A stretch of 64,000 nucleotides of DNA from contig CM057150.1 in the NCBI GenBank assembly GCA_029964075.1, positions 2,790,001-2,854,000 of the forward strand, read 5' to 3'. Below, piece by piece: positions 26,001 to 58,500 of the stretch (position 1 is its first letter; each line of letters starts with the position of its first letter). The notes below the pieces were generated by a model. The model made no database searches and was not told the origin of the DNA. It was given only the letters and a program-made list of their open reading frames with translations. This stretch comes from Patiria pectinifera (Eukaryota; Echinodermata; Asteroidea; Valvatida; Asterinidae). Both the position numbers and the translations under genes were made by a program.

Positions 26001-29000
26001 ATAACGAAGGAAACCACACATATATTCAGATGCAATTGCCCGATCGTTCCTTGTAGGTTTTGCTTTATTATACCTGTAAGGGCTCCGTGATGCAAATAAT
26101 AAAATGTGTGCGTTACCTGCAATATGTCCATACATCTCATTTAGTAACGTCTCCCGGATTAACATTTTACCAAGTCATTTTGTATATCATATGCATGCTT
26201 TTCAACAGAAAGACGAAATTCTTTGAACATGAGTGGAAAACGTAATATACATAGTTTTTAATTTTCGAACCAAAAACTGCTTGAAAACTGGGCGATTTTA
26301 CCAAATGCCAGAAGATGTTTTTATCCTGAACTATCAGATAAACATAATTATAAAAAAAAACATTCGTAACAAACGTCTAACATAGCCAAACATATTAACA
26401 TAATCGCCGATGTTGTTGAATCTTGTTTTTCATTTATGGCTCCCAGAGTGATATGAGGAATAATTAAGTGGAGTCCGAAGTTTAGTACCGATTTCAATGG
26501 TTTAATAATTTAACAAAGCATCTGCTTTTGTTTGTTTCACAGATAGTGGATAAATAATTAAAAAAAGACTAAATCCGGAATTTGCCGTCGAGGGTAACTC
26601 ACTCCCTGCAGTGGCGTGGTACGGTCCAAACGGTACCGCTGTTACAAATCACTCGAGCACTGGCCAGATATTGCTGGAAGATACCATTACTGGAGCTAGG
26701 GTTGTTGGATACATTGTCAAGAGTCGTCTGACCATCGATCAGGGCCAGATAGGCAACGGCTATGGGATGTACAGGTTCAGCGCTACCAACAGCATGGGGA
26801 CGTTTAACGGCCATCAAATACAGCTGACTAAAACAGGTAAAAACGTTCAGCTAATGAAATTCTACGATAATACATTGACATTATGGCAGCGAGTTTTTCA
26901 AGAAGAACATCAGATTGAACAGAAATTTCACGGTGTGCGATTGCGTTTTTCCGAAAATATTGTGTTTTCTGACCAGCTTCAGCTAGAAAAGAATAATGGG
27001 AATAGAAATGATGAATCACAGATTTGTAAAATGTTACAAGTTGATGGCCAATTGCATACAATTTATCATAAATCGATATTGTTGTTGCTTATTGTCCGAC
27101 AGCGACACACTTTTGCCTACATCGTAGACTATTTTAGGAGGATTTTTTTTGTTCCTCTTGTTTTTGACTCTCAACCTTTCACGCCAAAAATAAATAAATA
27201 CATGAATAAATAAAATCCGAGGGATTGGGTCGGTCCTCGTGGTTATCGTTATATCGGATAACAGCTCGTTCCTAGTCTGCAGCTCAGTCGTAAAGGATAA
27301 CCTGTTTAACGAGACCTCTCACAGTATTAACATCATCTAAATGTGCGCACTAAATCATCACGGGCCGGCAGCGAAAACGTGTTTTCATTAGCAAGAGCTT
27401 TTTCACCTATTGGGTCTGAGAACTAGACAAGGCCTAATAACAAGCTCCCGAATATCCGTGCTCGCCTATACAACGATTTCAGGTTGCTTGAATTGTTTGC
27501 CGTGTTGTAGTGTTTGTACTTGTACTCGAGTACTACTAGAGCACTTTTTTTTCGTACTCGTACTCGATGTCAAAGTACTTGTGCTCGAAATGACGGCACT
27601 CGTACTTGGGTAGCAAATTACTCGCAGTCGACATGTCAAAATTGTACTCGATCATCAAATGGGGGAAGTGGTATAATTTGACTTACCATGGCTATATTTT
27701 ATCGACACTTTCAGTTGGAAATGGTTGATTGGCTTGTAGAAAAATGGAAGTTTTCTGGTTTCCCTCTGCACACGTCCGAACAAACACAATTAACAGCTAG
27801 CCGTGACTGGGTCTGTATATCGGTCTGACTGGGCCTGGGCCAATTGCGCGCAATGAACCATTTGCCGTATGGCCGTATTTGGGAATATAACGTACTCGCA
27901 CTCGTACTGGAAGTACAAGTACTCGTGCTCGGAGACCTGAACATGTACTCGGAAGGATAAGTACTCGTACTTGTACTCGATAACCTAAGTACTCGGCAGC
28001 ACTCGGTACTGTGAAAAAAAAACACTCGACTACAATAAAGTTTGCTTGTTTGTTTTCTGATAGAGGAAATATACTTGGTGACACCTTCTCCCTACCCTGT
28101 AGACTCCAGCGGTCTGTTTCAGGACGTCAGCGCGCGGGTGGTGCTGGCAGCAACCATCGGAGGTGCCCTGGTGCTAACGCTGGTGGCTGTCTGCTGCTGC
28201 TGGCATCGGCTCGGCTGCGCTAAACGTAATGTGCGAGGTGATGTATAGCATGATTTCGAAAACTGCTTGGTATAACAAACCTCCCATTTTCTTTGGAAGA
28301 TTATGTAGAGCGTTGTTCCACGGTACGTGGGCTCCCACCCCCACTGGGGCCATGGTGCATGTGTTCTTGAGCAAGACACTTATTAGCTACACTACACTTT
28401 CAAATTCGCATTGAAACCGAGCTGAGTCTCTCAGTGCCAAGCCATTGTATGTATGAATTGAGGACATTTTTTTTCGTTTCAAAATCTTCTCAACAAAAGA
28501 CAGTACCGAAGCCTTCGGTTTCATTTCCAAATTGAAATTCCTCTATTGCCTCTCTTCCTCTAGGAGCATAAATGGGTACATGAGAAGGTAGAGAACAGGT
28601 TGAGCTGATCTCCAACATGTGCCAAAAACTGGTGTAATGGCCTGATGAACAGGGGTAATAATATTGTGGAGTGCTTTGAGACCTTTGGTGTAAGCGGTAC
28701 ATGAGCACCACATTGTTGTTATTATTCAATGTAAGGTATAGCCACTCAGTGTGTTACCTCCCAAGTGAAAAGTTGGTAAAACTAAAATTGGAAGAGACCT
28801 CGAACCCACGGCCTCCTTCTTTCTTGTGCAGACGTCTCACCATTCGTTCGGTTGGCAGTGGTTCGAATCTGATGTAGGCCTACAAGTAGCGGCGGGTGAA
28901 GGGCAAAACGGTGACGTTGATGAAGGGCAAACGAATATTGATTTACATCACCCCGACGCAAATTCATCTTATGAATAATTATTGTTATTGTCACGTGACC

Positions 29001-32702: not shown

Positions 32703-32797
32703 TTACACGAAATACTCCGGCCTGTCGGTCGTGCCTGATGATACACATTCGTACGCCGGTGGGGGATGATCACTATTACCAGCAGTGACAATCATTT
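32703..32797 (-). CDS. IgPY-3 exon 10, second PPxY motif and stop
   Basis: After CTTGTGTAG. MIVTAGNSDHPPPAYECV, then SSGTTDRPEYFV and TAA at 32705-32703. Confidence 0.85.
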
Positions 32798-35700
32798 CTA
32801 CACAAGACAATAAAGATCAAGGACCTTCATTATTTGGGCTTTGTTGTTGGGCTGGAGTTTTTAAAGGTCTGGGGGTGAGTATTTTTTAGTTCATTCAATA
32901 GCAATAGCAACTCTAGGGACAATTTTATTGGAAGTAATGCTGTTCTTTATTTTAACCCTAAAGGGGCCGGGGGCGAATCCCCCCCCCCCTTTTTTGTGAT
33001 AAAAAAAAAAAAAAAAAAAAAATTTTCGTTATGACTTTTTATTAGCCTTCTTTTTTGCCTTTTGCGCATCAAAAAACAAAAAAAAAAACACGTTGCCGGC
33101 CGCGGCGCAAAAATTTCGCTTACGCGCGCGCTAACTAATTTTTGCATATACGTCGTCTACACAGAATTGCCATTCATTCATTCATATATATAATTAATTA
33201 ATTAATAATTCCAAAACCCTTTGACCTATAGTGAGGAAATTTCTTGGGTATGTTTAGGAAGAGTTGTTCTATGGCTGTGAGTTCTGTTTAAATTTTCGTT
33301 TTTCGCCGGCCGAGATGGGCGGATCAACCCCCCCCCCCGCGAGGCCCAGAAAAAAAAATAACCCATGCCTAGCCCGTTAAAGTAAATTTGTTATTAAAAC
33401 AATGACATTTGAAGGTCGACATTCATTCTCTTTACATGACTTTGACAAAACATTTTTGGAGGAGCGTTTGAAGGTAGGCATATGTGTTAACAGTAATAAC
33501 AATGGAGCAGCGCCCCAACATTGTGAGCTTGGATGTCATGACCTATGTCCTGCTTAACATTCAGATGTCTTATGTTCTATCGTTAGGGTTTGTACAAGTC
33601 GTAATGATGCGTGATGGTATGGTATTTCATTAAAGTTAAGTGTTCATTCTTTAATGTTTAGTATGTTTGCTATTCCACGAGTAATGTTTGTTTGCTTCAA
33701 AAGTGTTTTAATACCTGCACTGTTGCCTGTGGGGAACTTTTTTATTGCGAAACCCTGCTCGTTTGTGTAGCATAACATAGTCTTGCCTTGGGACTAAATT
33801 AAAGACTCACGATGCTCACGATACTGGTGATTTGGTTTTATGCAATGACATTCATTCTTACCAAGTGCTTCATTGTAGGTTGGAGGTGAGTCGTTCCCAT
33901 GTTGGTACACCTCCGCTTCCCTGTGTTTGGGAGGGGAAAAGGTAAGTACACCTTAAAGACCCCACCAAGAGCATTAAAAACAACTGAACTGAAGTGAGCA
34001 AAGAAGCATATATCGTTTGACCACAGAGGCATTTTAATGATCAATACCATATTCCACCTGTAATTGAGGAAACCCAGAGCATCTAAATTCCAACAACTTT
34101 TTGCCCCCCCCCCAAAAAAAAATTGTGTACTGGATCCGCCCTTGTCCAGACAGCCTATAGCGAAAGATAAATTTTCTATCGACAGCCGGTTTGGTGTGAA
34201 ATTTGGACTCCTATGAAATACAGACTTGTCGACTGTATCGTACATTGCTCAGCGAATAGAACCACAACAGCTCACTAACGCACTTGACGTCAAGAGTCCA
34301 AGTAATGTCAAAATGTCTGGATTTTGTAGAAGCCCAAATTTCAAATAACACCGAAAATGAAAAGAAAGGAAATGCATTGTAGGATCTTCCGACACTTGGT
34401 GGCGCTGTTCATTTTGCACATTATAATGTGTGTTCTATATAGTTAAGCCCTGTCACACTGTCTGCGATCATATATGCGCTCTCACTGCGTCCTTGAAAAA
34501 TTGCTGGGGCGCAACAAAAACAACCAGATCGCAACGACAACTACATAGGTTGTCTGATGGGCGACTGAGGGTCTTTATGGTCTCCGATGAGCGCAAACGT
34601 TTTTGAACATGCTTAAAACAATCGCAACACCTCTGCGCTCTGGCAGGGTGCCGTAATGACGCAAGTCGGGCGCTCTGCGAATGTGCATCGTGCGTTGACG
34701 TGGCATTGACGCAGCCTAGGCGCAAGGCAGTCGATGTAGTCTCCACGAGAAAGTAATTCGACTGCGATGGAATTGTAGGAAAAAATGAAACTGGACTGCG
34801 GATTGACCGTTATGTCGTGGTATTTATACAGCGCAAGTGACGTCACGTGAGCGTATTTTGGTCGGATAGAGAGCGTGACGCCAGCTACTAGGACGTATCA
34901 ACAGCGAACAGAGCGTAGTATAAGCGCAGTGGCAGCGCAGCGGCAGCGACGAGATCGAGTATACTTGGGCTTGACAGGGGCGCATAGAGAGCGAGTTGAG
35001 CGCATCATAAGCGCAGGATGAACGCAGTATGAGCATAGCTTGAGCTACTTTCTGGCCACTTTATTCAGAAAATGATATTTTCTTGCGTTCTCGCTGCGAT
35101 TGTTATGTTAGGTCTCCTATGAGAGCGCATATAATGTGAGTGTGACAGGCCCTTTAGGCACGTACCCGCTTTTTACATCATTCAAGGCAGCTTCTATTTT
35201 TATATTACTATCATTAAAATGCTCAAACAGCCGTCGGGACTAACCCGTTCTTGTTACTTTTTCCCCTCCCTTTCAATTAGGGAAGGAGGACGGGGTGGGA
35301 TCAATCTTTGAATTAACAAGTTAGGCTTAAGTCAACACACCATACACAGACGTGTAATCATTAAGCCCAACACCACCTGTGCATGCGTTTATTTACCTTT
35401 CAGTCGTTCTTAAAGTTTTTCCTTACAAATGTTTTTGGCAGTAAATTGTGGTTAGTTTTTAATCAATGATCTTAGTTTTCAATCAATACTCCTTTTGTTT
35501 GCCTCAGATCAATAACATGGTGTGTCAGCCATTACAAGTTTGCATGTTTTTGCTTGATGCGAACATGTACGTATTTTCGCTCACATTATGTTCAGTACTT
35601 ACGGTGCCAGGGGTGCATGTCTCGTTAGCTCAACATTGTCTGTAAAAAGAAAAAAGAAAAAAAAAAGAACCTCCACATCACATTTCTTTTTCTTAAAAAA

Positions 35701-38700
35701 AAATAGGTTGGAGAGTGTGTCCGGTATAAAATTTCCCCATGGATCATACGTTTGACTCAGAAAAAAATGGTTTTGTTAGTTGCATCTCGCCCAGTCCTCT
35801 TCATGATCAATTAATATTCGGGGAAATCTCGCTATAGCCATCGTTAATTCGATAAAAAGGTAATCCCATTTAGTTTGTAAAATTACATTTCGTATAAAAA
35901 TTTGGGATTTCTTAAATTTGTGTTGCGGTAGCGCTATATTGCAAAATCTTTTTTTGTGAGTATGTGTGGTTCTGAAAAGAACCGGAGAGTAGACTCAACG
36001 GTTAGAAAAGTATGCTCTGCCCGTCTGTCAGGAGACTCTCAACGATGGGCAGAGCATCATCTGACACGTTGAGTACCCTCCGATCCGATCCTTTTCAGAA
36101 CCACACATACTGACAAAAGAGATTTTTTCATATACCATTTCACCATGCAAACCTTCAAATCTCATTTTTTTTTTAATGACCGACCGACCGACAGACTACG
36201 CTTACCTTGTCTGTTTTATTTAGGTTTTCCCGGCTATTTTAAAACGTGTATCATTATATTCACCGTTTAAATATTCAAATTCATCGATCAGCATCGATTT
36301 AGTGTACATGTGTAATTTCATCTTTTGTCAGACAATTTTAAACTCAGTTCGAGTAAATTAAAAAAACGAGCACACGTTTTCGTCCCGGTGTATTCGATTT
36401 CGTCTCGACTACGCCAAACCTTGTTATACAGAAATCAAATAAGTCTACTTGATTTACCTGTTACATGCACACTACATTAATGTGAATAGCGCCCTCAAGA
36501 ATTTCACCACCCATTCATGTGAGCAAGAAAAGATGGCCGCTAGCATGTGAATACAACTCAGTTCGTGTTAACTCAAAGACAAGTCTCTGTCCTATCCTAA
36601 ATGCTACAAAGAAGCATTACATTACCTAAGACGTATTCGATTTCTGAATGCTGCCATTCGGCAACAGCTAAGACAACATTTGATCTGTAACGACGAATAA
36701 TTTTTCTCGACCCGTTCACTAAAGAGGCTGACCAAACTTTTAAAATGTAATGGCACATGAGTAAATTTGTTTTGTTCAAAGCGTGTAAAATTTTTCTCGG
36801 ACGAAATTGAATGCTAGTGTTGTTGAATTTGAATGAAAAAAAAAAAATCTTTAAAAAAGCCAGGAAACACTGTAATTTGGAAATCTTCGATCAAAATGTG
36901 GAAAAAGTAGCTTCGGCAGAAACTATAGTTACCTTTCCTTTAAGTACAACATTTAAAATAAGGGCAACAATTTAGAAACAAATTAATTTGCTTTCCATTT
37001 GGCTTTACCTGAAGTTGAAGGTAGAGAGATGGGTTTATTACAGTCGCTGAAACACGCAAGGTACCGGCAGATTCCAAGGCCAAGAAGCAGCAGGACTATG
37101 CCAACAGATAGGCTGACGCCAACAATCACCCCGACATTGTCAGCTGTGTTCCCCCCATGCTTGGGCCAGGTGGGCAGAGGTGGACGGGCAGTAGTAGGAA
37201 AGTCTGTACACGATAAATTAGAAGTCATTGCAAGATATTAAGGTTGGTGTCTAATATATAGCGCTTTTTGGTGGTTTCTTTTGGCACGGATACGGCTGGG
37301 ATTTACTGCCGTTCAATGGACCGATCCAGTAAGCCCCGCCCACTGCGCACTAGGCAAATTTACACGTGCTCATCTCCAATGCCACACTGCATTTTCCTGC
37401 CGCGCGCATCATACGCGTGTCGAACTTTAGCGCACGCACGTCGGACATAAATCACGGCTGTGATTGGTCAGAACACTGTGGGGCGGTGCTTACTGGATCA
37501 GTCCATTGAGAACGATGCCCATTTGGAGCTGCGCGGTCTGGATCATAGTTCAAACTTGGACGATATTTCTTAGTGTATTCGTATTGTCCCTACTGAAGCT
37601 TCTTCCTGGTAACCCTCCACCAGCTTTTGTTTGTGCCTTTTTGCAATTGCTTCCCTTGGTTAACAGTACGGCAGTTATAGGTGATGGGATTGTGCCTTTG
37701 ATGATACTAGCATGACATTTGGCACACAGTCATGCAACTGTCCCGTGGCGGTCATCTGAAGAAAAAAAATAGCCGGCACCATTGAAGGGGGCCTCTCCGT
37801 AACGGAAGTGATAGCGTGCCCAGATGGATCTACATGTATTTAACCACGCACACAAGTGTGTTAACACCTTCAATAGTGACCCCCTATTCATGTCCCTCTT
37901 TTGTTTGTACACTTTTTAGCAAGACCTTCCATGTATTTGTACACGATCGTCAATCGCGGACCTTCGGAAATTATTAACCTTATTGTCCTCTATTGTTCAA
38001 CTTCCACAATTGTAATGTGTAAACAAGTGCACATACACCTTTGTCCGTAACTGTGGGGACTGCACATGAGTTGCCCGTGGGACCAAAGACGCCATGGGGA
38101 TAGCAGAAAGTCCCAACAACTCGGTCCTAATTACCCTAAAAATGAAAACTTCCCCATAATGCGGTGACAGCCCGCCCACACAATCGAGGAATAGCTTACC
38201 CTCTGTCACGTGTGACTGCGAACTGCATAACCCATCATGGCAGTATCGACAGTGGATGTGACCGGTATTCGGACCGGAGCACTCGAACTCGCCGTCTTGC
38301 TGAATGCAGTCTAGGTCTGGTCTCAGACTCACCCACTCACCCTGGCTGGTATCATACCCTATGAGGCGCAGGCAGGTCCCGTCGTAGTTGTCCTTTGGCA
38401 TGCCGGTGACCATAATTATACGGTGTGCCTCGTTATATGTCACTCTTATACCTGAAAGCGGTGCGGAGCCCATGAAGAATTGTTATGAAGGAATCCCTAC
38501 ATTTTGCAATGATCAGGTCGTTAATGTTGTTGAAAGAGGTAAGGGCAATAAAATGTTTTTAGACTGATGTCAAAATAATGATAACATGTATTGTGTCGAT
38601 CGACATACATTCATACCTTTGGGGATACTTTGTAGAAATTTATTTTACATCAGGGAGACACTTGGCGTGCATCAGGTAAACATTTGAATTTTGAATGTTT

Positions 38701-41700
38701 GCCAAATGTTTTAAGTACATGTACCATTTTTAGATGGACTTTTACTGCTGATAGCTGTTTAAAACGATTTCTTAGGTCGAGAATAGTATCAGCAAGAAGT
38801 TTGATCATGGACAGTTTAAATATGAACTAACTCGGCAAGGTGAAGAGGAACCAAATAGTTATTACACTTACCTAATTCATCCGGTGATGCAGCTGAATCG
38901 TAACAACCACGGAAGAGAAAAGAAAATGCAAACAGAAATTATTCACAAGATGGGATTTTGTTTGCGTCGGGGTGATATAAATCAAATTAGGTTTTGCCCT
39001 TCACCGACGTATAATATTTGCCTACAATGTTTTAGGTAACATTTCTAGAGGACTTTTGCTGCCGATAGCTGCTTAAAACAATTTCTTAGGTCGAGAATAG
39101 TATCAGTGAAACAGAAAATGTAAGAATGAAACCTGGTTTCTTCATGTTTGAGTGTGATGAGCGACTCTATAGGACATCAACATAGACTCGGTTTTAGACA
39201 AAAACGTTCGCATTAAATGTCCACTGACAAAAATGACGTCTGAAATCAAGAAAACAAAAAACGACCTCGTCCCATGTGTTACATATCATAAATTCCCCTC
39301 CGCGCTCTGAACATCAGACGTTCGGGTAACCGCGAAAAAATCTGGCTTCCGGGAGTCAGGTTAATTGGCGTAGCGGGACTTCCTCACCTTCCACCGCTGT
39401 GACCCCGGGTTCGATTCCCGCTTGGGCAACATGTGGATTGGGTTTTCATCCCCACCTGATTCCGTGGGTTTCCTTCAGAATCTGGACTATTCCTCCCATT
39501 TCTAAAACCGTAATTTCTTTACATTGTCTTCTCTCTACATGTTCCTTCAGGCTTTCGAGGTGCAGGGTCTAGGGCATTTTTGAGGAACCCTTGGTTTCCT
39601 TACCAGAGACACATAATATGAATACATAATTACAAAATAGGTAATTTGTGGTCACAACCCCAGCCACACAGCACAGCACAAGTATCAGCATAATTGTGAA
39701 TCGAGGATATTTCGTTGTTCATCTTTTGTTAGTAATCAAGCATTCTGTAGAACATGTCATTCGTTTTGATACACTTGTTTACGTTTTACGTCCAAGACTG
39801 TCCTGACAGCGCATGTCTTCAAATAGAAAAAGGGTTTCCTAAAAAAAATGCATTTACTCGATTTACACCATTGGGGCGCGTCCGAGTGTACTTACGCCTC
39901 GTGCGCACGTCCACTGTAGCGTATAAACTGGCCCCGTGCGTATTGAGTGCATACACGGCCACTTGGTAAAGCGTGCCTTGTTCCAGGTAAGAGAAAAAGC
40001 CTTTGGTGATCGTCGGAGGCCAGCGTTCGATCCAGCCACCGGCGTCAAAGTCCCACGGAATCTTGCGAATGTTGACATAGTGTGCCTGCAGCTCCTCGCC
40101 CCCGTCGTAGCCTGGCTCCCATGTCACCCAGACGTCGTTCTCTGTTACATAATATACTCGGAGGTCTCTTGGCGGCTCTGGCTTTCCTTTAAAAAAAAGC
40201 GAATACACTAAAGTTCATTATCCAATTAAGCAACATGTTGTATCGCTTGGACATAGGGTTGTAAACCATGTACAGAGCATGTTCCTTGCTCTATTTGTAA
40301 ACATTCACCTGTTGGCTTTCAGTGAGCTTTTTGGTTACACCTGTGGGTAACATAAACGTACTCGGGACTACCAGGTATCAAAATAAATCATCCATCTCAA
40401 AAACACTGGGCTCAGAACACTGCGTCAAATAAGGGCTGACATTAACCTGACTTTTACCTGTTTTTGTCAGCTCTATTTCATGCTCGTCGTATGTGCTGAT
40501 GTTGTTGGCAGCTCTACACCTGTACATCCCATAATCGGTGATGTTCGCCACTGGAGTAATGATCAAGTGACTGACGATGAGATAGCCCACAGCCCCACTA
40601 CCGGTAATGGTGTCTTCCAGGAAGATCCGGTCAGGGTTGGTATAATTGGTAATAATGGTGTCATTTGGACCGTACCAAGTGACCGTGGGGAGGGGATTAC
40701 TTCGGACGATGCATTCCAAGGTTGCTGTGTAGTTGTCGTTGGCACCAATCCACGTCCTGTCCTTGGTGGTAATTTCAGGAGGATCTAATTGACGCAAATT
40801 GGAGAAATCGAATGGGAGAAGGACAATCATCAATGTAATCTTTCAGGTTTTAATGGTGACAGCATTACAATGGCATTTAAATGCAACACTTCAAAACTTG
40901 TTTTTAAAAAGGAAATAGAGGTTATCTCATTTTTGATGACTTCATTAAAGGTGATTACAGTGAACGATGTAATAACAGTTGCTGTGCCACTAATATCCAC
41001 CAACATGGGATGAACAGAATCAGAATCCAATCCTGTTAACAAAAAGCCTTTGAAATCCACTCCCATGTTACAATATTATAGAAGGTGTAACTGTCTTTCA
41101 AACCTTATACAAAAACATAAAAATCGGACCGCTGGTTGCCATGCAGCGATTTTTTTCCCGGCGTTATGCGCCGTGAAAACTGAATTTTCGCATATACGTC
41201 GTGTACACCGAGCAGAATTGCCATTCAAACATATGAATAATTAATTAGCCATAATTCCAAAACCCTTTGACCTATAGTCATGAAATTTCTTGGGCATGTT
41301 TAGGAAGAGTTGCTCTATGCATGTGCTGAGTTTCAAAAATTTTCGTCACTCGATGGCCGAGATCTCGGGGGGGGGGGGGCGGAATCCGCCCCCCCCCCAA
41401 GGATTCCAGGTCACATATAATTGAAAATGGAATTGACGTGTCATTTTGACATTAGGTCAAACATGACCAGGCTTCCATGGCAAATGTGATCCGGTATCTT
41501 AAGAGTGTACTCCTGGTACAGGTGCAATGAACCATTGCATAAGCTCTGGCATATTATTACTCAGCTCGATTGCTTGTTGAGTTGCCATTCATATTCAAAT
41601 CTATTCAGTACATTTTAAGTCTTGAATTAGCCTTTTTTTCTTATTTGCTTTTCACGATTTAAAATAATTCTTCAAATGAATGACCAAAAAAAGAAGGTCT

Positions 41701-43036
41701 ACAGCCTTTAGGATTTGGCAGGGTTCTTGATGTATTTGACTGAATTGTATCGTCATTTAAATACTCCTTTGGACGAAAGTGAAAACCAATATGGGGCTAC
41801 TCACAAAGGACTTCCACAGCAGTCGAGTCGGAAAATGTGTTTGGATTCCAATAGCTTGATGTCCAGACGCTGGTCCCCACACATCGGTACCAGCCAGTCT
41901 GGTTCCTGGACACCCCTGTGAGCGTCAAGTTGTTGCTTGAAACTGTATATGTTGGTTCAGTGAGCGGGAAAAAGGAAGCTCCATTCAGACTGTGCTGCCA
42001 CTGAACCCATCCAGTGGCGGCTTGGTTGCTCGTGATGAGGCACGTGAGCGTGACGTCACTTCCTTCGAGGATGGATTCCGATGGAGATGTAGTAACGGAG
42101 AGCTCCCAGTCTCCACGAGTGACTAATCAAAATGAGTAAGTTAAGGAATCTTGAGAAACATGTTACATGTGTTTAATTCAGAAATTGGAAGTTGTGATCA
42201 TGTGATGCCAATTTTCAGCAAACTGTTCTCTTCTGCATTGCATGTATATGTGTTAAAACATAAATGGTTTGAAAGTTTTGGCATACAATATATGTTGGAC
42301 GAAATGACATGCAAAACATGCTGAAATGTTTCGGTTGCCTGGCGGTTGCCTGTCGGCATGAGGTCACATGAAACATACATAATTTATATGTATGCAGTGT
42401 CATAGTTTTGTTAATGAAAGTCGCATCACAAGTCATAACAAATCGTCTCAAGCCTGCACAAATCAATCACTGGTCAATCACAAGTCCGTTAGCTATTAAA
42501 ATGAATTGAACTGTGACAAAGGCATGATCCACGGTAAGTGTTCATCCTCTGTTGCTCGGGTACTGAGGTGTGATTTCCCTCTTTTCAATTGTAACGCGTA
42601 TACGCGACGTGTGATGTACTCGACTGTGTACCGCCGTGCAAAAAAATAAACCTCTAACACTATCTGACATTTAATACAAGGTCATATAAGTCACATAAGG
42701 GTGGTGTGCTAATATTCCATGTCTGTCTCACAAATGTGTTAACAATTGTATGCCACCTTTGAATCCATGGTCTGCTTGTGTTTGCACAATACACCCATAT
42801 TATATCACTGTGACAATGCAAAATGTTCCTGTAAATTCAATTGCCTTTCTTTTTCTCGATAGTTACACTGTCTGCGCTTCAGCTAATAGGTCGTGTCAGG
42901 CTAACAGTACAGTTCATCCGTTTATGTGTTCGTCTTTCCCGTGTCAAGGCATTTGCCGTTCTAAACTGTCAGACTAACCTTGTGTGGAGATTTGAACCAG
43001 TGACAACACTACTACTGCGTAAATGGCGTGCGCCAT
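32703..43036 (-). CDS. IgPY-3: type I receptor, 2 Ig + FN3 + Cys module + TM + two PPxY
   Basis: Ten minus-strand exons (43036-42979, 42122-41805, 40784-40458, 40186-39896, 38892-38872, 38451-38200, 37203-37009, 35639-35603, 33920-33862, 32797-32703) total 1653 nt and close as 550 aa. It is the clearest full example of the family plan: signal peptide, Ig-a, Ig-b, FN3, 21-nt exon, Cys module, stalk and TM, short exon, PPTY exon, PPAY terminal exon. All junctions restore sensible codons (for example AG-GC/CT gives Pro before ASPDEL). Transcribed away from IgPY-4 with 3.5 kb between start codons. Expected at the plasma membrane with the tail binding WW-domain proteins; ligand unknown. Confidence 0.87.
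32949..33385 (-). repeat. Dispersed G/C-run element, copy 2
   Basis: Opens TTTTAACCCTAAAGGGGCCGGGG and ends near CCCGTTAAAG; core is reverse complement of copy 1. In the IgPY-3 intron before the terminal exon in the opposite direction. Confidence 0.65.
33862..33920 (-). CDS. IgPY-3 exon 9, first PPxY motif
   Basis: 59 nt, phase 2-1, EAEVYQHGNDSPPTYNEAL. Exactly as long as IgPY-4 exon 14, with the shared EVY start. Confidence 0.83.
34448..35152. mobile_element. Non-autonomous DNA element with TIRs, ~700 bp
   Basis: Left end CCCTGTCACACTGTCTGCG ... ATATGCGCTCT and right end AGAGCGCATATAATGTGAG ... GTGTGACAGG are inverted. Interior is full of GCGCA/GAGCG words. No transposase. Confidence 0.7.
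35603..35639 (-). CDS. IgPY-3 exon 8, short cytoplasmic exon
   Basis: 37 nt, phase 1-2, NVELTRHAPLA, between CTTTTTACAG and GTAAGT. Found because phase 1-2 was required here. Confidence 0.68.
35950..36130. repeat. Foldback element, copy 2
   Basis: GTGTGGTTCTGAAAAGAACC left arm and CCTTTTCAGAACCACACATA right arm are inverted, with TGCTCTGCCC/GGGCAGAGCA inside. In the IgPY-3 intron between TM and tail exons. Confidence 0.7.
37009..37203 (-). CDS. IgPY-3 exon 7, stalk and transmembrane helix
   Basis: 195 nt, phase 1-1. Pro-rich stalk (TTARPPLPTWPKH), TM VGVIVGVSLSVGIVLLLLGL, then GICRYLACFSDCNKP. Confidence 0.87.
37313..37509. repeat. Short inverted-repeat element
   Basis: Left TCAATGGACCGATCCAGTAA and right TTACTGGATCAGTCCATTGA are inverted, with GCCCCGCCC/GGGCGGTGC following. 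IgPY-3 intron. Confidence 0.65.
38200..38451 (-). CDS. IgPY-3 exon 6, Cys module
   Basis: 252 nt, phase 1-1. IRVTYNEAHRIIMVTGMP, DGTCLRLIG, GEWVSLRPDLDCIQQDGEF and HCRYCHDGLC. Six cysteines, the most of any copy. Confidence 0.88.
38725..39110. repeat. Direct repeats flanking the IgPY-3 21-nt exon
   Basis: About 70 bases with GATAGCTG.TTAAAAC.ATTTCTTAGG and GTCGAGAATAGTATCAG recur at about 38728-38793 and 39045-39108, one on each side of 38872-38892. Confidence 0.7.
38872..38892 (-). CDS. IgPY-3 exon 5, 21-nt exon
   Basis: Acceptor TACGATTCAG, donor GTAAGT, phase 1-1; encodes ASPDEL plus two split codons. Located by analogy with IgPY-1 and IgPY-4. Confidence 0.75.
   Translation of the reverse strand: MHHRMN
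39355..39620 (+). repeat. tRNA-like SINE remnant
   Basis: GGTTCGATTCCCGC B box at about 39407, followed by a GGGTTTTCATCCCCACCTG body. Confidence 0.45.
39896..40186 (-). CDS. IgPY-3 exon 4, fibronectin type III domain
   Basis: 291 nt, phase 1-1. KPEPPRDLRVYYV, WVTWEPGYDGGEELQAHYV, LEQGTLYQVAVYALNTHG and VRTRR. Confidence 0.9.
40458..40784 (-). CDS. IgPY-3 exon 3, C2-like Ig domain (Ig-b type)
   Basis: 327 nt, phase 1-1. KDRTWIGANDNYTATLECIV, VTWYGPNDTIITN, TDYGMYRCRAA and ELTKTG. The NYT sequon before LEC is a likely N-glycan site shared with IgPY-4. Confidence 0.9.
41085..41401 (-). repeat. Dispersed G/C-run element, copy 3 (truncated)
   Basis: Reverse complement of the core of copy 1, ending at the G12-CGGAATCCGCC block. 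The distal terminus is missing. Confidence 0.65.
41805..42122 (-). CDS. IgPY-3 exon 2, Ig domain (Ig-a type)
   Basis: 318 nt, phase 1-1. WELSVTTSPSESILEGSDV, VTLTCLIT, GWVQWQHS, NQTGWYRCVG and YWNPNTF. Acceptor TTTGATTAG, donor GTGAGT. Confidence 0.85.
42979..43036 (-). CDS. IgPY-3 exon 1, signal peptide
   Basis: MAHAIYAVVVLSLVQISTQ then G|GTTAGT, phase 1. Context AAGATGG is strong; the pattern matches MAFVKYAVILLGLW of IgPY-4. Confidence 0.78.
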
Positions 43037-46590: not shown

Positions 46591-49500
46591 GTAAGTCAAA
46601 GACGTATGGCTTATTACTGGAGCACATTCCCATAATTAAGATAAGGAATTTTATCTGAAACGGGATCCTAAAAATTGTGTTCAATTTATCAACTTGAACA
46701 CCGTCTATGGTGTTGTAAATCTCTACCCCTGCAGTCATTTACGACGGTAGGGATACCGTTGATTTCAAAACAGTTTCGGCTAAGTCGGGTCGATTATTAG
46801 CATTGAGACGAGACGAGTAGTTCCAAAGAAGACCGAAAACACCTGAAATATCAAATAATTTTACACTCTAAAAGTCCCGTGTCAAATCCCTCCCCGGCGC
46901 TTTTAGACTGTATTTAATCAAATGTCCAATAAAAAGTGATCAATATAAATCCGTGCTCGATGAACAACTGCATGTTCATGAACATCGAACATGAGCCCCA
47001 ACAATATCGAACTAGCGACAGCCATATTGGCTTCACGAACATGAATACCAAGTATCTTTTTATTCCCGCGTAGATTGGACACTTTCCGTGACCAGGTCGT
47101 CATGGGATACCGTCCTTGAGGGCAGCAACGTCACCTTCACCTGCACCATTGGTAGCGACAACCCAAACTTTTCTGTATGGATAGAGTGGCGGCACACTCT
47201 TTTTGGGGACGAAATCATCACTCTCACCGCGCCTACATACGTAGCAGGCAGCCACAGTTTGAACCTTACGGGGGTGTCCGGGAGCCAGGCCGGCAGCTAC
47301 CGGTGTGCTGGGAGCACCTCCTGGTCACCAGCCTATTGGAACCCCACTACAATGTCTGGTTGGAGTTCCTTACCACTCCGCTGTGAGTACACGCGAAACA
47401 TATACTTTGTACATGGCCAGTCCATGAACATGATCTACGATGAAATAAACAAAAAAACACTACTGGTTTATCTGAGCGGTATTTCGTTGTATCGTAGTCG
47501 GGTGATTGTCGCGTATTCACGTGTTGTTCTAGAGTCCATTTCCCCTGTTGTGCCAGGTGTCCTATAAATATTCTAAAGGACTTTAACTTTTGGTACTACA
47601 GTTCAATCCTTGTGATTTAATGTTAACCAAAGCTACTCTTTTAAGGCCCAAAAAAAAAATATTCGGTCTCTGGTCAGACCAAAGTTCCGGAATAGACGCG
47701 GGAACGCGGCTTTTTTTTTTTTAGCTTTTTTTTTTCTTCAAGCTTGGTTTGTACAGACAAGATGGGGTACTATTTTGCTATTTGGTGTCATGTACATTGG
47801 TGTCCTCCATAATTTGCCTTGGTGCTCTCGATCATTTGCCTTGGTGCAATTTCCCATTCCTTGGTGCTCTTTGGTAAAAATTTTTTAAGGAGGTGCGGCA
47901 ATAGAGGGCGCTGTTGGAGCTACCGTGGAACATTTTGGAAAAAAAAAAGATTGACGCGCATGATTAAAATCGACGCGCGCGCTGACCAGAGACCGACTTA
48001 TTTTTTTTTTGGCCTAACATTTATTTTTTTTCAGATATGATACTTCCCAGCAAAACCTTTAATTAAATTGACTGAGATAACTTTAATATATTTGCTAAAT
48101 AAAACCATGTTCTAAGGTAAATCCTCCTGTGAAGTTGGTGCGTCCTTGAAAACCAGAAATGATTTATATTTAATCTGGAATTTTTTTCCTTCACAGATCG
48201 CCCCGTATTTATAAACAAGGACAGGACATGGATTGGTGCGAACGACTACCACAATGCAACTTTAGAATGCTTCGTTCGAAGCGATCCCCAGGCTACAGTC
48301 ACTTGGTACGGTCCTAACGGCGCAAATATAACCGAAGACACGGACCCCGACCGAGTCTCAATTGAAGAAGATTCTTATCAGAATCCGTATGCTGGCTATA
48401 TAGTCGATAGTCTCTTGATCATCAATCCAGTGAATTCCAGCACCGATTATGGGATGTACAGGTGTAGGGCTGCCAACGGCATCGGTACATATGTCGACCA
48501 TGACATCGAGTTGAAAGAAACAGGTAATGACGTTATCATTTGCCCGTGGTTTGCACGAAGTATTGAGTTTTGAAGATAGATGATTAAGATACCGGCTAAG
48601 GACATTAGTGTGAAAAATACACACAATCCGATCAGCAAAACAAAACAAAACATCAAGTGAAAACTAAACGTTTCATTAACAAAATATTTTCCTGCTTTAA
48701 AAAGTATTAGATTCAAATATTGCGAATGACTGTGTTTTATATTCTCCAAGGATGTTGCTTTTCGTGGCAAAGCTGGCTGGCTTTTTCAGATTTTAAAAGC
48801 CGGAGAAGGGGGCGCTTTCGACCACTTGATGGTACAGGGTGCTTCCGCTTGTCTTAACCTTCAACTGTTCTTCACGAATAGGCAGAAGATCATAATGAGG
48901 ATGAGATTCAGTGTTTTAAAGGAGGCACAATGTAAACGTTGATTTTGCTTAGTGTATAAAGACAAATTTCCTTGGTGTTACAAACGCAAAGTGGTCGGGC
49001 AGGCAATTTGTTCATTAAACACTGCCGAGTTGAGTTATGAATATGGTATTGTAAGAAGAAAGGATCACACAATTAAATCTTTTCCAGTACAATCAATTAA
49101 TTTGTTAAAAAATGCATCTTAAACGGTGTGATAGATTTTAGTTAACATTCTATGCACACAAACAAGTTATTTCTTGCTTGATGACGTCATTAATCTAAAA
49201 ATACTGATTTAGTTCGGAGTAGATAAACGTTTGTTGTGAAATTAATAACGTATGGAAATATGGAAATATAACTATGTATTCATAACACCTAATGTTCGGT
49301 TTAATGACGTCACAGTATTTGGAGGCAAATCGTAAACATTGTAATGGTGTCGTTATTTGGGCTACGAATACATACGACATGGATCAAATGATACAATTAA
49401 ATTTAAAATATTGTCGTGTCAAATTCTCATAGAAGTAACTTACGGTCTGATGACGTCATGAATTTGAAACCTTGCCAACTTATTTGTGGTTTATCAAAGA

Positions 49501-52500
49501 ATATCAAGGTGCAATTTGGTGAAATTTTAAAGGATGATTTTCAAGTTAAAGGAAGCAAACGCTTTTTAATATGCCGCTACGGGGCGCCCTTTCGAAAGAT
49601 GACGTCATCACACTGTCTTGTGTCTGGCATTCCTCACTTTCATAATTTATTTGTGTGTAGTAAAATGCTTCCGCTTTTGAGTTAAACTCGGTTTTTATTG
49701 CACTTCCGGTAAAACAGGAAGTGAAGGTCAAGCAGTTTTGGGTCCAGGGACAAGATACGCGATACTATATTTAGTTCAAAAGATATAGCACAAATTATTT
49801 CGTCAAAATTTGACCTGAATTCACATGTAATTTGATACATGATGATGTTATGATGACGCAAAAAAATATATAGCATCTTCGTAACATGTTACAAGTTCGC
49901 GCTAGGTTTTTAATCATACCTTAAACCGTATGGAAGACATTTTGCTTGTTTTGATTTTAGGCTAAAGTCTTCATTTTGAATTCACCTAACTTTAACCTTC
50001 CGGTTGACCCGGAAGAAAGGGTCAAGTGAACGTCAAGGAAATGTTTATCAATTCATTAAAATATAAACATCACTAAATATGTTGTTCAAGAGTGATGGGT
50101 GAAAGTAATTGGTCATTTTTTCAGCTGAAATCGATTGTAATTTGACATCCGGTGACGTCGTTATGACGTCAAGGTTCCTATCATGAACCGTTTAGGAGAA
50201 AACCCGCGGAAACGTGCCGTACGGGGAAAAAAAAGATATACGAGAACAATTCCAGACAGTGTTCGGGTTGTGCCCGACCACTCAAAAATGCGTTTCCGTT
50301 ATACCACCTCCACCTGGATATATCTAGCGGTAATTGAGGGAGGGGGGAGGTTGAAGAGTCAGATTCGTTTGGGTTAGGAACACTTTTTTTTTATAAATTA
50401 ATGAGTATTTTGTTTTACAGGACCACCTGAGGCGCCAAAGAACCTCGCAGTATCTAACAACTACGTAACTAAGGATACAATCGGGTTCAACTGGGAACCA
50501 GGCTATGACGGGGGCGAGGAATTGGAGTCCTATTACATGAACATTCGTGAGGTTCCGGGAGAATTCAGTGCCTCGAACTGGATCCAACGTGGCCTGCAGG
50601 AGCGGTATTGGGCGTATACTGACCTCCAGCCGGACATTCTCTACCAAATAGCAGTGTATGCCAGGAACAAACTCGGGACGAGTCAATACTCGACTCTAGA
50701 TGTGCGCACTGCGCGTGAGTATCAGTTCCAATGTTGCTTTTATGCCTTCGACCCTCACGCTTTTGCATCACATGTATATGTTTGATGCATCGACCTTATT
50801 AATTCATTGGTGTATCCTTGGAGTAAAGTGGTGCGATTATTTTCTCGCGAGTGGTCTTATTTTCACGATTGCCTTTTTTACTGACCAGCGTAGGATGGCC
50901 AAAAAGAGCAACGCCTATTATCCGAGAGTATAAAACTGTCATCGAAATGATGTGTTCATCCAGACACCTGTTCAAAAAATTATGTATAGGCGTATAAAGA
51001 TAAAAATATATTTGCACAATACATGCATACCTAAAAATAATTGTTAAAAAATATATAAATAACGAGATCTTTTAAAATCGTGCACTTTGAACAGCGCCCC
51101 ATATGAAAAATACTGAACATATCGAAACGATTTTTAGCACATAGTTGGATCATTAATCAGGGAAACAAACTCCAAAGGTGGCAGGAAGATACTGTCCTCA
51201 AACGGGAGAAATCAATGATGAAAAGGTTTGTCTGCGAACTTCAAAAGGTCTGTGTAACGGTAATGTGAGCTTGTTTCTTTCAAAATATATACGTGAGTAG
51301 CAAAATATTCCCTATTTAGCAACAGGAAGACGATACCTGGTTTAGACTAGGATAATACGCAAATACCTGGTTATATTATTTTTATTTGGATTACTGTGGA
51401 AGCGTTAACGACGTCTTTATAGTAAATTTTAGGTTTTGGCTTCATTTCAATTTAATGATTTTCTGTCTAACATTGTCCTCGTTTTTTTTAATATTATGAT
51501 ACAGCTTTGGAACCGGGTCAGTTGGGTAAGTGCACCTTTTCTTTTCTTTTTGTGCTGACGTATTTGGAATATATATCGTCACTGACACCACGAACTTTCA
51601 CCCTCTGCATCACATGTGTACAATTTTTTTTTAAGTTCCAATTTTCTTTTTTACAAAGTTAAAATTGCTGAAATCATCTAAAATAAGCAAATTTTACTAA
51701 TGAATTCTCAAGAAATCGGTCAATTCGGGTATTTTTTGTTACCACGAAGTGACCCTGCACAAGGTGTCAGTTCGTGAAAACAAAAATTTGCGTGTTTTTG
51801 GAGATTGTGCGCATGCAATAGCATTAGGGAGTGTCAGTTCGTGAAAACGAAAATTGACGTGTTTTTGGAGAGTGCGCGCACGCATGCGCAGTGTGTGCGC
51901 GCACTCGCCCAAAACGCGTCAATTTTGGCCATTTCAACCGCATTTTGCCTCGTTACAATCAGGTTGCATCGAGCACAAAGAGGATGCATCTCAATATACG
52001 CCCTTTTGTCGAATAAATTAAAACACACAGGCCTAATTTTGCACAAGATACGCCCTGTATGCTATATTTAAAATGGAAGGCCATAAGAAACCCCTAAGTA
52101 ACTTTATCTAACAAGAAGACATATAATTCCAGTTAGGCCTCCACCCTTTCACCGTGAGAGGACCGATTTAGAAAATGACCCATAAAGGTGAGCAGTACCT
52201 CAAATTGAAATCGTCTAACTTTGATCGCACTCAGGTATATCAGTATTATACATCAAGTCAAATGGGAGAATTGTCGTCACTGGCATGCCGACAGACGACG
52301 ACAAAGGAACCTGCCTACGACTAGCGGGGCGGGCGACGGGAAGCGTGGATGATGTGAGTCTGAGGTCAGACCTGGACAACATTCAGCATGACGGCGAGTT
52401 CGAATACTTCGGCCCGTATTCCGACAATATGGTATCTTACTACTGCCGGGATGGACGGTGCGGTTGGAATTCTTACGTTTTCAAAGGTAAGTATACCTTC

Positions 52501-55500
52501 ACATTAAAAACAAACGTTCGGCAAAGGGTTGGAATGTACCATCTGACTTCAGCCTCTGGCAAATTCTCCCAAATTTACCCACAGAAGGATGAATTTACAC
52601 CAACGTTTGCTTACAGTGTTTTGCCAAACAATATCATTTTACAGGGTAGAAACACATGTAATCGTATAAAACTAGACCTTTTCCAAAATGAGATTCCATA
52701 AGACTCTATGGTGTTTTGTCTTCGTTTACGTAACTCGTGCAGTGTGGCTTTCCGTGACCAAGAACCCATTGGCACCTGTTCCAGAGAGAGGTGACGTCAC
52801 GCTGACCTGTTTCCTCAACACCCACAACTCGGGATGGATCGAGTGGCAGTACACTCTCAATCAGGAGACCTCGACCAATCTCACCGAGCCGACGTTTACT
52901 GAGAGCAGCAACAGCTTGACCCTTGAGGGGTTGCTCAGGGACCAGGCTGGCTGGTACCGATGCGCTGGGAGGGCGTACTGGTCATCGGGCGATTGGAACC
53001 CGGATTCATTTTCATTCTGGACTGCTGTTATTGTCTACTGTGAGTATATACGACCCCTCCCAACGATCTCCACACCAGTCGCTATTGTAAACCCAAGCCC
53101 TATACCTATTGTAGACCTAGGCCCTATACTCATCTATTTTTGTGTTCTTGTTAATTAAAAGTGCAAACTCAAAACCGACTAAGACCGACTTGCAGGGTCT
53201 CATTGCCCCCGGAATTGTGTTAACACCCTCAGTGTTTGAGCCACCTTGCTTGTACAACCTTACCACTGCCGTATGGGGTACCGAAACAATGGGAGGTACC
53301 CCACAAGGAATGCCCCCGACTTACTGGGTACAGTTTTGGCAACCCTCAAGTTTTTACGAAATAGATATATTAATTTTACTCAAAAACTAGTAATTTTTAA
53401 GGCGGGTTGATGTGTCGTAAATTGAAGAGTTTTGGAAAAGGGATATTAAGTCTGAATTTCAGCCCAGGAAATTTATTCTGGTTAGAATAAGAGCATATTG
53501 AAATTAGTGCGCGACTTTGCAATAGTACACGAGAACAAAGAAAGTACCCCAATTCTTTGCCTTTGTGTGTGGGTGTGTGTGAATTTGTTTTACATTCACT
53601 ATGTGGACTTGTGAACAAAAGCTGTTCACATAATGCAGGTTGTGTTGACGTTATGTTGACTAAGCCGTGCCCACGTAACGTTTCGCCCTCTCTGGAAAAC
53701 AGGTTTAGAGGAATTTTGGGGTTAAGTTTATCCATGGCAGAATGAAGAGAAACACTATAGGGAATTAAAGAAAAAATGGGTTGAAAGAGTTTTCACAGTT
53801 CAAGTAAAGTTATTTTTTGTACCTAGTTTCCTTAACTACACGAAAACAAAGGAATATCCACATAGCGTATGTAAAACAATTTTTGTGTGTGGTTTTTTTA
53901 AGATCACCTGTTGGGACTGTATACACATACCAGAGTGGTACGTCCTTCATCGTTGGTTGTAAAAAAAATAATTTTGATTGCTTGCAGTTACGTTTGAGTG
54001 GGGGAGTGTGTGGACTAGTGGTTAGGGTTCGTGACTCATGATCAGAGGGTCAGGGGTTCGAATCCAGCTGCTGGTCATATATTGTGTCCTTGGGCAAGCC
54101 ACTTCACCCCCGCTTGCCCCTCTCCACCCTGGAGTATAAATGGGTACCGGCATTAGCTGGGAAGTAACCTGCGATGGACTAGCATCCCATCCAGGGGGAA
54201 TATAAATATTCTCAGTCGTTTCATGCTACTGAAACTGGAGATAAACGCCGGCCTGATGAGCCACATTGGCTCGTGACAGACTTTACTTTACTTTACTTAC
54301 TACTCTTGAAGCCCCTGTATTCTGGATCTGTATATGTTTGGGAGAGACGCCATTGGGTTTGTACACGATTCCCAACGGATGACTTTTACCTGATCGCGGT
54401 CCTTATTAATTTGTCACATTTTTCCACCTCTTATTTTTGTGAAAGATGGGCCTGAAATCATTGACAAGGAAAGAACCTGGATTGGTGCGAACGACAACTA
54501 CACAGCAACCTTAGAGTGCATCATCCAAGGCAATCCCCTCCCCAATGTCACTTGGTACGGTCCAAACGACACCATTATAACCAACGACACAATACCTGAC
54601 CGGATTTTACTGGAAGATACCATTTCAGGAGATGGGGTTTTTGAATATCATGTCATCAGTCACCTGATCATTTCTCCAGTGGAGAACATCATCGATTATG
54701 GGATGTACAGGTGTAGAGCTACCAGTAACACCGGTACATTTGACGAGCACGAAATACTTTTGAAAGAAACAGGTAAATTTAATTTGTTCTCATCATTGAC
54801 TCGAATAAGGCAGTGTAGGCCTATGCTTGTTTCCCGAGAGCCTCTGAAAGAGAAATGTTAACAAATGCTGTTGTTTCTTCTCGCCATTATTTTGCACGAA
54901 TGGAGCACGGCGCGCATTTCAGCATCTGACACTTTTATAATTATCATACCTTCCACATTTTCAGAAGTTCTTTTCACCTCATGATGAACATGTATCCTCT
55001 CATAACTAAACCAGTATTCATTTGCACATTTTAACTGCTGACGTCATCAAACTGTTAATAACGTGTTCGTGTACAAAAGAAGATTTTTTATCAAGTAAAA
55101 CGAATGATTAAACTCGACAGGCCAAATATCTGTTCTTACATAAAAAAAAAAAAATGTACAACATATGCAATGTCCTATGAAATTATTTTCTGCCCGATCA
55201 CCCAAAGTTTGAAACTCAATAAATGCGAAGCTCTAAATGTTATGGTTTCTTTTACTTCTTTTTTTTCTCATGAATTTAGGAAAGCCTGAGCGGCCAAATG
55301 GACTTCACCTGGATCACGTTTCAACAAATTCAATCGTGTTCCAATGGGAGTCGGGATATGACGGAGGCGAGAAGTTAAGGCGTCATTATGTCAACAAACG
55401 CGAGATTCCTGAGGAATTCGATATACACGCTTGGAGACCGAGCATGTATCCTGATATGTCGGATTATTTCCCTAACCTCAAGACGGACACAGTCTACCAA

Positions 55501-58500
55501 ATAGCAGTGTATGCAACAAACAAACATGGCTCCGGTCCCTATGCGACTCTGACCGTGCGCACTAAACGTGAGTAGCAATAGTAGTCACAATGGAACAATT
55601 AAGCTACATGTAGATATTTTATGTTGATCTTGACAACCGCTCGGATGTGGTATTACACCGCATGTTGACACTGCTTATCAGGATTTCTGTCTGGGTCTTC
55701 ATATCCTGTTTTTGTATTAGTGATACATCCATGGACACTCAAATAAATAAATACAAACAAACAAACAAATTAACAAACAAACACCCGCAACAACCCACCC
55801 AGCAAACTACACATCAACAGATAAGTACACACTTCGTCATTAAATCTGCGTATGTGTTCTACATATAACCCCCGAGGCCCGACACACAAAGGGAGAACTG
55901 TAGTGTATAAAGTGTTTTTACTAAAGGTCTTAACGTGTTTTCGAATTTTAACTTTGGGAATCGGGATCAATGCACAAGATAAATGTTCACGATGGGAGCA
56001 GTGGTAACTAAACCTGCATTGTGTAAAATCCATGCCATCGGAAACATCGAAGACGGAAATGTAATTCGCACTTAAATTGCAACAAATAGAGGTAATCTTA
56101 CTTGTGCCCATTCTTCCAAACTAGAATTATTGGTATCCTCAATAAATTTGCACGCGCACAGCGAATCGTGTGTTGGGAAGTAAAATTAGTGTTTGATACA
56201 TGATGTGCACACATACATGTTTGAACAGTGTATCCTAGGGGCAGATTGTTTAAGCCCCTCCCCCTCCCAACAACCACCCTGTCGCTTTTTGACTTTCCCA
56301 AGGTGCTAGTTGGCAGCTATAACCGAGTTATTTTTGTCGATCAACTTTGGGCTTAATTACAATTCCTTTCTAACAGTTTTTCACTTCTGTTTTCCTTCCA
56401 TTTTTGTGACTTTGCAGTTACATCCCCATATTTTATGGGTAAGTGTGATGATTACGATGCTTTGCCTGTTAAGATGTTAAGTATGTAGGCTTATATTACA
56501 ATTGGAGGTGGAATGCTTTTAAAACCAAAAAGGTTTTCCCGCTCAAATTAGCTAGAAATTCATTCACATTTGTTTTAGAACAAATATGAAAGCGATGTTT
56601 ATCTAACTTCTTGTTCGGTTCTTATTCATGTTCATTACGTTCAATTTCGTCTATTGACATTCAAATTTGTTTCCAAATCAGAAATTGCTTCATTCAATAT
56701 AAGATAACAATTAGCCGTCATTCAATTTGGCACACCTTAATTGAATGAGGTCTGTGTATTCGATTCTTATCTATTTAATATCCGTTAATGTGCAATCACT
56801 GAATTCTATCACTCAAAATGAATACTTGCACATCAATAGGACGACAAAAGACTTGAAACGTTACGATGAAAGCATTTTTGAATGACCGTCTAAGTAAGAT
56901 GTATTTTTACAAACAGCTGTTAATTTGCACAGAGCAAGGCATAAGTTATTGGACAATGCAGAATTGTCCGACTCTGTAACTGCAAACTGGTTGATAATGT
57001 ATTTAAAAGAAAAAGAGTAGCTTCAAAAGCGATTATCTCGTGATTCTCCCTTTTTTTGCCAGATATGTATGATTTTGCCACTTCATGAGAACATCCGAGA
57101 AATGATCAGTTTAATTTAAGAATTAATGTTTTAGGTTGACACACCCAAAAAGCACGGGGCCCTCCTTTTAAAGATGAAATTGCAGAAGTCAGTAAAATAT
57201 TCCACATAGGAACTTGATTAACAATATTTGCTTACTTTCCTAGGTATAGAGGTGATATACGTCCAGCCACGAGGCAAGTTTGTCATCACCGGTATACCGG
57301 AAGACGACGACGCCGGAACCTGCCTACGACTTGTGGGGCGGCCTGACGAATCCAAATGGGAGTGGGTGAGTCTGAGGCCAGACCTGGCCTGCATTCAGCA
57401 TGACGGGGAGTTCCTGTACTCCGGCCCGTATCCCACAGACCACTTCCACTGTCGATACTGTCGGGACGACGTGTGCGGCTCCGATTCTCATGTTACTGTT
57501 GGTAAGTTATGATGGCTGAGTACTCATGTCTATTGGGAATACCGTAAAACTTCTTTTCTAATTGCGGACATATGCCTAGTGCAGTATCCCGTCTGAAGTA
57601 TCGATTCGTAAGTTATGTCGCGTGTTATGTTCGGGTGCACATGTTTTATTTACTGTGTAAATCGAAGACACACTCGAGGTCGCCCTACTTCTTTTCTGAT
57701 TGGGGACACATACCCAAGTGAGGCCTTGGACAATCCTTAAGTGGCAACATGTGCAAAACCAATGCTGTCAAAAAAGTAGAAACAAAAGAAACAACACGAT
57801 GTCTTCGATTTACACCATACACAAACTTTTGTATTGGCGATCAAGAAATCCGTACATTTGCTTTCTTTTCAATTCGAAACTGGGAAAGGAATAAGTTGGA
57901 TGTGGCATTAACACCGGTATCTCAAAAATCATTAATTTTCCATTCAAAATCCCTTAATTGTATAATAACGCTTGGCCAACAGCAGGTTCACTATAGTCAG
58001 ATTGATGAAGCTCATCGTCTCCACTTCGATTACCAATTATCTCTGTACAGTTACTATTACGACTCCTCGGCCCCCCATACCAACAGGCGATGCGAAGAAT
58101 GATGATGTAGTGATCGTAGCTATGGGCGTGTCTGTTGGCATTATTCTCCTGATAATTGCGATCGTTGCAATGTGTTACCACCGCAAGTGCTTCAACTGTG
58201 CCAAAACCAGCCATCATGGTAAGCAAATTAAAGCGAAAAATCCACTTGGTATTCTTGAAATATTGAACTTGGAATATACTGACCACCGTTGAACATCAAG
58301 CACACGGCAGAAAAGGAGAAATCGACGAGTCAGCCGTATCAAACACTCACACGAACATTATCATCCCATCCACTGAGATCAAGCCCACATTATCGCCCCG
58401 GTCACCCACTGGCACCCAATACGCATCAGAGATCCACTGCAACAACACAGCCACTCAAAACATCGGATTCTACATCAACGACATCTGGGCGCAGCATCCT

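Follow-up and report, generated by a model that had tools for sequence, protein, structure and literature searches.

Module exons in the window

The window analyzed here is a stretch of 64,000 nucleotides of the 613.5-Mb Patiria pectinifera genome (C22:2790001-2854000). Bindin, a marker of sea urchins and sea stars, was matched in this genome at E 1e-33, as fits an echinoderm. A search for COX1 gave no match, and one for the lancelet marker GFP was blank both here and in the controls and so carries no weight. It contains genes for putative receptors that share a small cysteine-containing module, encoded by a single exon and preceded by immunoglobulin (Ig) and FN3 domains. Four module exons had been proposed in a first-pass annotation of the window. 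All four were found at the proposed places with an open frame, AG/GT borders and phase 1-1. The exons are listed below, with Cys positions numbered as in copy 4.

16513-16758, plus strand: module exon copy 1, type A, the most diverged; 246 bp; four Cys (C26, C49, C72 and C77)
38200-38451, minus strand: module exon copy 2, followed by stalk and transmembrane segment; 252 bp; six Cys
52235-52486, plus strand: module exon copy 3, in an internal position, where a second Ig-Ig-FN3-module unit and not a transmembrane segment comes next; 252 bp; without C49 and C69
57244-57501, plus strand: module exon copy 4, followed by stalk and transmembrane segment; 258 bp; five Cys

Identity to copy 4 was 59% for copy 2, 53% for copy 3 and 27% for copy 1. 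The motifs TC-[LV]-R-[LV]-x-G and [RY]-Y-C-x4-C, both described as common to the window copies, were present in 4/4. The other two proposed motifs were less general. TG-[MI]-P was observed in three copies and is replaced by SGIP in copy 1. C-[IV]-Q-[HQ]-D-G-E-F was exact in two copies, with N for C in copy 3 and the sequence CVQHDTVV in copy 1. The module had also been described as invariably positioned after FN3 and before the membrane stalk. This applies to copies 1, 2 and 4, behind which a transmembrane exon was found, but the exon behind copy 3, at a distance of 254 bp, encodes an Ig domain.

Genome-wide copies and cysteine signature

A genome search with copy 4 returned 14 further places, 13 of them with E-values from 1.8e-40 to 2.5e-14; the fourteenth was copy 1 (E 0.19). 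All 15 places of this search are located between 2.806 and 3.022 Mb on the contig of the window, and a local search of 264 kb gave the identical set of 15 exons. This group was named type A. A further genome search returned a fragment of the last ~19 residues of the module at C22:2930891-2930947, 199 bp from a whole copy. With copy 1 as query, five further diverged copies were found elsewhere on the contig (E 0.015 to 0.07, 31-32% identity). One of these, used as query in turn, recovered a tight group of five and a partial copy on contig C972, together named type B (six copies). The same query found copy 1 at E 0.002, copy 2 at E 0.009 and, at E 0.026 to 1.3, 14 further copies that form a third group, named type C, with 12 copies of one kind and two of another. 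The genome thus holds about 35 module copies, which is a lower bound. The original count of four is correct for the window, but a lone module at only four places is ruled out by the further copies from the genome and local searches.

The module exons are real, and the E-values of the genome search show that their resemblance is beyond chance. Copy 1 belongs to the family because of its gene order, its phase, its four core cysteines and an intermediate type B sequence. Type C was included despite its weak E-values because of the shared cysteines and the same place in the gene. The order IgB, FN3, module, transmembrane segment was read in locus L060, the only type C gene read, and FN3 precedes the module in the type B loci L040, L041, L043 and L044. 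The last ~22 codons of the module are also copied in repeat arrays with a spacing of ~86 bp after type B module exons (C22:973809-974730, 1514511-1515518, 2446212-2446961 and 2461544-2463489; C972:7419-8342).

Four cysteines form the common core of the module and give the family a Cys signature of its own. C26, C72 and C77 were present in 33/33 aligned copies and C49 in 32/33, the exception being copy 3 with N. C69 was restricted to type A (12/15). An odd number of cysteines was counted in 11/15 type A copies, and a free Cys could link two chains. A tentative guess for the disulfide pairing is C26-C49 and C72-C77. Type C copies have six cysteines in 13/14 cases and seven in one. The distance between C49 and C72 differs between the types, with 33-34 residues (mostly 34) in type C, 16 in type B and 20-23 in type A. 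All 18 aligned type B and type C copies contain the pattern C-x12-W-x5-C.

Predicted fold and relationship to known domains

The first-pass annotation could not match the module to a named domain, and this was borne out. Pfam hmmscan of 14 and then 21 members gave only matches of E 0.074 or worse, with one member per family, and searches of the PDB returned nothing meaningful. By its sequence the module is a new family that Pfam misses. The best lone Pfam match, DUF6436 (E 0.074), scored 13.2 bits, below the cut-off of 27.3, and was rejected. The PDB matches to TcmN cyclase, ABCB6, GspC and XPC (E 0.56-1.9), to chymotrypsin-C (E 0.031) and others, and to designed TIM barrel repeats (E 0.0001 for the whole chain, but above 100 for every stretch) were taken as chance.

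A module outside the known kinds of domain is, however, not what the structure predictions suggest. AlphaFold models of copy 1 (pLDDT 87.7) and copy 4 (pLDDT 80.5) were both predicted to form an FN3-type beta-sandwich, and FN3 structures fill much of the lists of structural neighbours. Judged from these models, the module is most likely an FN3-like domain that is hidden at the sequence level. It resembles FN3 (PF00041) in size, in its phase 1-1 exon, in its extracellular position beside another FN3 and in the predicted sandwich. It differs in its four near-invariant cysteines and in the lack of an fn3 match, as 0/21 members (0/14 of type A) matched PF00041 at E-values up to 10 within the filters of HMMER. 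FN3 domains have a conserved Trp in strand B. This residue is not conserved in the module, where a Trp at alignment positions 9-19 was found only in copy 1 (position 11) and in the type C copy L057 (position 16) out of 33.

The fold prediction could be misleading if the module had a small Cys-stabilized fold of its own and AlphaFold built an FN3-like model by default because the sequence is short and beta-rich and its alignment thin. This is unlikely. Two copies at 27% identity reach the same structural neighbours over the whole domain, copy 1 is modelled with high pLDDT, and the size and phase of the module exon are those of FN3 and Ig exons.

The module could also be a diverged duplicate of the adjacent FN3 exon, which it adjoins and equals in size and 1-1 phase, and the predicted folds are alike. 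We consider such an origin quite unlikely, since hhalign links no module profile to the FN3 profile of the same genes and the weak local match is out of FN3 register. Probabilities against the FN3, IgA and IgB profiles of these genes were 1.3% at most; for IgA and IgB, the two Ig domains of each unit, they were below 1%, and homology to these was rejected.

Class II cytokine receptor domains head the structure list of copy 1 and occupy 17 of the first 20 rows for copy 4. Among solved structures, the copy 1 model is closest to the first domains (D1) of IL-10R1, IFNGR1, IL-22R1 and IFNLR1. The C-x12-W-x5-C pattern of types B and C recurs in D1 of human IL-10R1, and in local alignments against IL-10R1 0/1000 shuffles scored as high as one type C copy, with p 0.001 for another type C copy. 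The module might accordingly be seen as a true relative of class II D1 and an invertebrate outpost of that family, but the sequence tests are weak and the likeness is a hint, not a finding. Only 2/20 pairs tested had p at or below 0.001, and copies 1 and 4 gave p 0.78 and 0.88 against IL-10R1. No class II receptors were returned from the PDB when the query was copy 4, a module profile or a single copy of type B or of type C. Hhalign against a four-sequence class II D1 profile gave a probability of 5% at most, the best being that of type B. The domain layout is also different. The module is membrane-proximal behind Ig-Ig-FN3, unlike the D1-D2 layout with its distal D1, and kinase exons lie beside most type B and type C modules. 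True kinship is on balance very unlikely.

Linked kinase exons and the furin-type site of type C

A 9-kb piece around the type C module L060 (C22:2206500-2215500, reverse strand) was found to contain IgB, FN3, the module with the sequence QKRRRRAVG, a transmembrane segment and kinase exons. The two kinase pieces, when joined, matched Pfam PK_Tyr_Ser-Thr at 1.1e-12, and the first PDB match was FGFR2 (8.2e-14). The first kinase exon matched 48 places at 1e-6. A kinase match on the strand of the module, 1.4 to 3.1 kb further downstream, was observed for 6/6 type B modules, that on C972 included, and for 10/14 type C modules; no linked match was found for the remaining four type C modules (near 52390, 1022333, 1573067 and 2193191). 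Three of the 16 linked matches contained a stop codon. Some of these genes may have become pseudogenes, or the end of the exon may lie further upstream. Receptor tyrosine kinases that combine Ig, FN3 and the module form an expanded family on the chromosome of the window. Among the matches listed, literature titles and the beginnings of abstracts mentioned neither this domain nor such an echinoderm kinase expansion, which is not proof of absence.

The type A cluster gave a different result. The first kinase exon had no match in it at E 1e-6, and a lax search with two kinase exons to E 10 in the 264-kb region, of which 10 kb is N, returned only short chance pieces. Within the scope of these searches, the window genes are therefore relatives of these receptor tyrosine kinases that lack a kinase.

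R-x-[KR]-R is the furin consensus. This motif was present in 14/14 type C modules and in 0/19 modules of types A and B, and is located between predicted strands E and F. Cleavage of the type C module by furin would be expected from this motif. According to PMC4092861, an insert in FnIII-2 of the insulin receptor carries a furin site. The type C module would resemble this as a predicted FN3-type domain that bears such a site in a receptor tyrosine kinase. The insert of the insulin receptor has ~120 residues, compared to 34 residues between C49 and C72 in most type C copies, and the ectodomain is L1-CR-L2-FnIII and not Ig-Ig-FN3. LAR-type phosphatases likewise have a furin-like site near the membrane, although they are phosphatases and not kinases; in PMC8711739 their cleavage is placed at a penta-arginine where the ectodomain ends, and the subunits are described as remaining non-covalently bound.

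Architecture of the type A cluster

Eleven genes were counted in the type A cluster, with IgA-IgB-FN3-module as the repeat unit. Genes 3, 6, 7 and 8 have two full units, gene 5 has one unit plus IgA-IgB, and six genes have one unit. Five of the 15 type A modules are internal, and 10/15 precede stalk and transmembrane segment. Between an internal module and the IgA that follows it, the gap measures 254 bp (gene 3), 284 bp (gene 5), 261 bp (gene 8), 1,069 bp (gene 7) or 10.5 kb (gene 6). A transmembrane segment, a gene end and a new start could not fit into the short gaps, and both units of the two-unit genes would be expected in one protein. Gene 6, with its 10.5-kb gap, could be two genes. The other features of the three window genes are listed below. 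Domain names have a Pfam basis for ten window exons.

12023-12361, plus strand: gene 1, extra N-terminal Ig domain (Pfam C2-set_2)
13221-13532, plus strand: gene 1, IgA domain
14291-14611, plus strand: gene 1, IgB domain
15110-15388, plus strand: gene 1, FN3 domain (Pfam fn3)
17349-17600, plus strand: gene 1, stalk and transmembrane segment (hydrophobicity scan; open frame, exon borders not set)
18487-18498, plus strand: gene 1, first PPxY of presumed tail (frame scan)
18766-18777, plus strand: gene 1, second PPxY of presumed tail (frame scan)
41803-42111, minus strand: gene 2, IgA domain
40459-40779, minus strand: gene 2, IgB domain
39900-40187, minus strand: gene 2, FN3 domain
37046-37195, minus strand: gene 2, stalk and transmembrane exon
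33875-33886, minus strand: gene 2, first PPxY of presumed tail (frame scan)
32751-32762, minus strand: gene 2, second PPxY of presumed tail (frame scan)
47073-47384, plus strand: gene 3, unit 1 IgA
48202-48522, plus strand: gene 3, unit 1 IgB
50420-50710, plus strand: gene 3, unit 1 FN3
52739-53041, plus strand: gene 3, unit 2 IgA
54448-54771, plus strand: gene 3, unit 2 IgB
55279-55563, plus strand: gene 3, unit 2 FN3
58059-58274, plus strand: gene 3, stalk and transmembrane exon (frame extends beyond the likely donor)
61098-61109, plus strand: gene 3, first PPxY of tail (frame scan; stretch conserved between paralogues)
62166-62177, plus strand: gene 3, second PPxY of tail (frame scan; stretch conserved between paralogues)

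The extra N-terminal Ig of gene 1 is a CD80-like C2-set domain with no other match in the 264-kb region at E 1e-3. A lone IgB-like exon at window positions 26578-26835 (plus strand), with F in place of the second Ig Cys and no other unit domain within ~9 kb, is probably a relic. With a cluster IgB as query, 60 places were found at 1e-3, 56 of them on C22. The interior of gene 7 contains exactly 10,000 N (C22:2943717-2953716, region 153717-163716). The FN3 exon of gene 10 (L031, C22:3011815-3012100, region 221815-222100) was recovered in two pieces, and this copy may be broken or misassembled.

PPxY tails and sequence evolution

The presumed tails were searched for PPxY in the frames that follow the transmembrane segment, with exon borders not set. 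Two motifs were found in eight of the 11 cluster genes and three in genes 10 and 11, in which the third looks like chance; gene 5 had none in 7 kb of downstream frames. Most of the motifs lie within stretches conserved between paralogues. The first was PP[ST]Yx2AxGK in 8/10 genes and the second PPPAY in 9/10. PPxY motifs bind the WW domains of NEDD4-type ligases, and ubiquitin sorting and turnover would therefore be expected rather than kinase signalling. The Hydractinia Alr genes also encode clustered receptors, whose Ig folds were missed by sequence searches until structure prediction. They belong to another phylum and have other domains, and their tails carry ITAM/ITIM-like motifs, unlike the PPxY tails found here.

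Nei-Gojobori averages (dN/dS) for the six membrane-proximal units were 0.38 for IgB, 0.72 for IgA, 1.06 for FN3 and 1.14 for the module. For the four internal units they were 0.48, 0.61, 0.39 and 0.94, and for all pairs with dS below 0.8 they were 0.47, 0.60, 0.80 and 0.97, in the same order. The module is thus fast-changing at both internal and membrane-proximal places, with its core cysteines kept. The excess of dN over dS was not significant, as dN was at or below dS in a fraction of 0.297 of 400 bootstraps. Diversifying selection on the module is possible, and relaxed constraint fits equally well.

Proposed explanation and significance

The results are probably best explained by an FN3-type module in a superfamily of Ig-Ig-FN3 receptors that has expanded on one echinoderm chromosome, furin-cut in type C and whole in the kinase-less clade of the window. 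According to the models, the module would be a disulfide-stabilized FN3-type beta-sandwich that has lost the sequence hallmarks of FN3, and it would form the rigid membrane-proximal end of every Ig-Ig-FN3 unit. In type C, furin would cut between strands E and F and produce a two-chain receptor, as the motif and the analogy to the insulin receptor suggest. In the window clade the module would stay whole, and the receptors would be turned over or sorted through WW-domain proteins of the NEDD4 type acting on the paired PPxY motifs. The window genes would most likely encode recognition receptors, or else proteins that serve the kinases as co-receptors or decoys, and the module would form a fast-evolving interface together with the FN3 beside it.

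A more far-reaching proposal can be put forward tentatively. The kinase genes may represent an unnamed class of receptor tyrosine kinase (Ig-FN3-module-transmembrane segment-kinase) with at least ~15 genes on one chromosome and a furin-cut two-chain hinge in one clade. Together with them, ~11 kinase-less PPxY paralogues, fast-evolving next to the membrane, might serve as a decoy or co-receptor recognition system, and the module might be an ancient relative of class II D1.

The module adds a domain family beyond the reach of Pfam. One kind of ectodomain would be combined either with a tyrosine kinase or with a sorting tail that bears PPxY, and in one kinase clade the module has an internal furin-type site that is open to direct test. 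If it holds true on deeper alignments, the likeness to class II D1 would bear on the origin of class II cytokine receptors.
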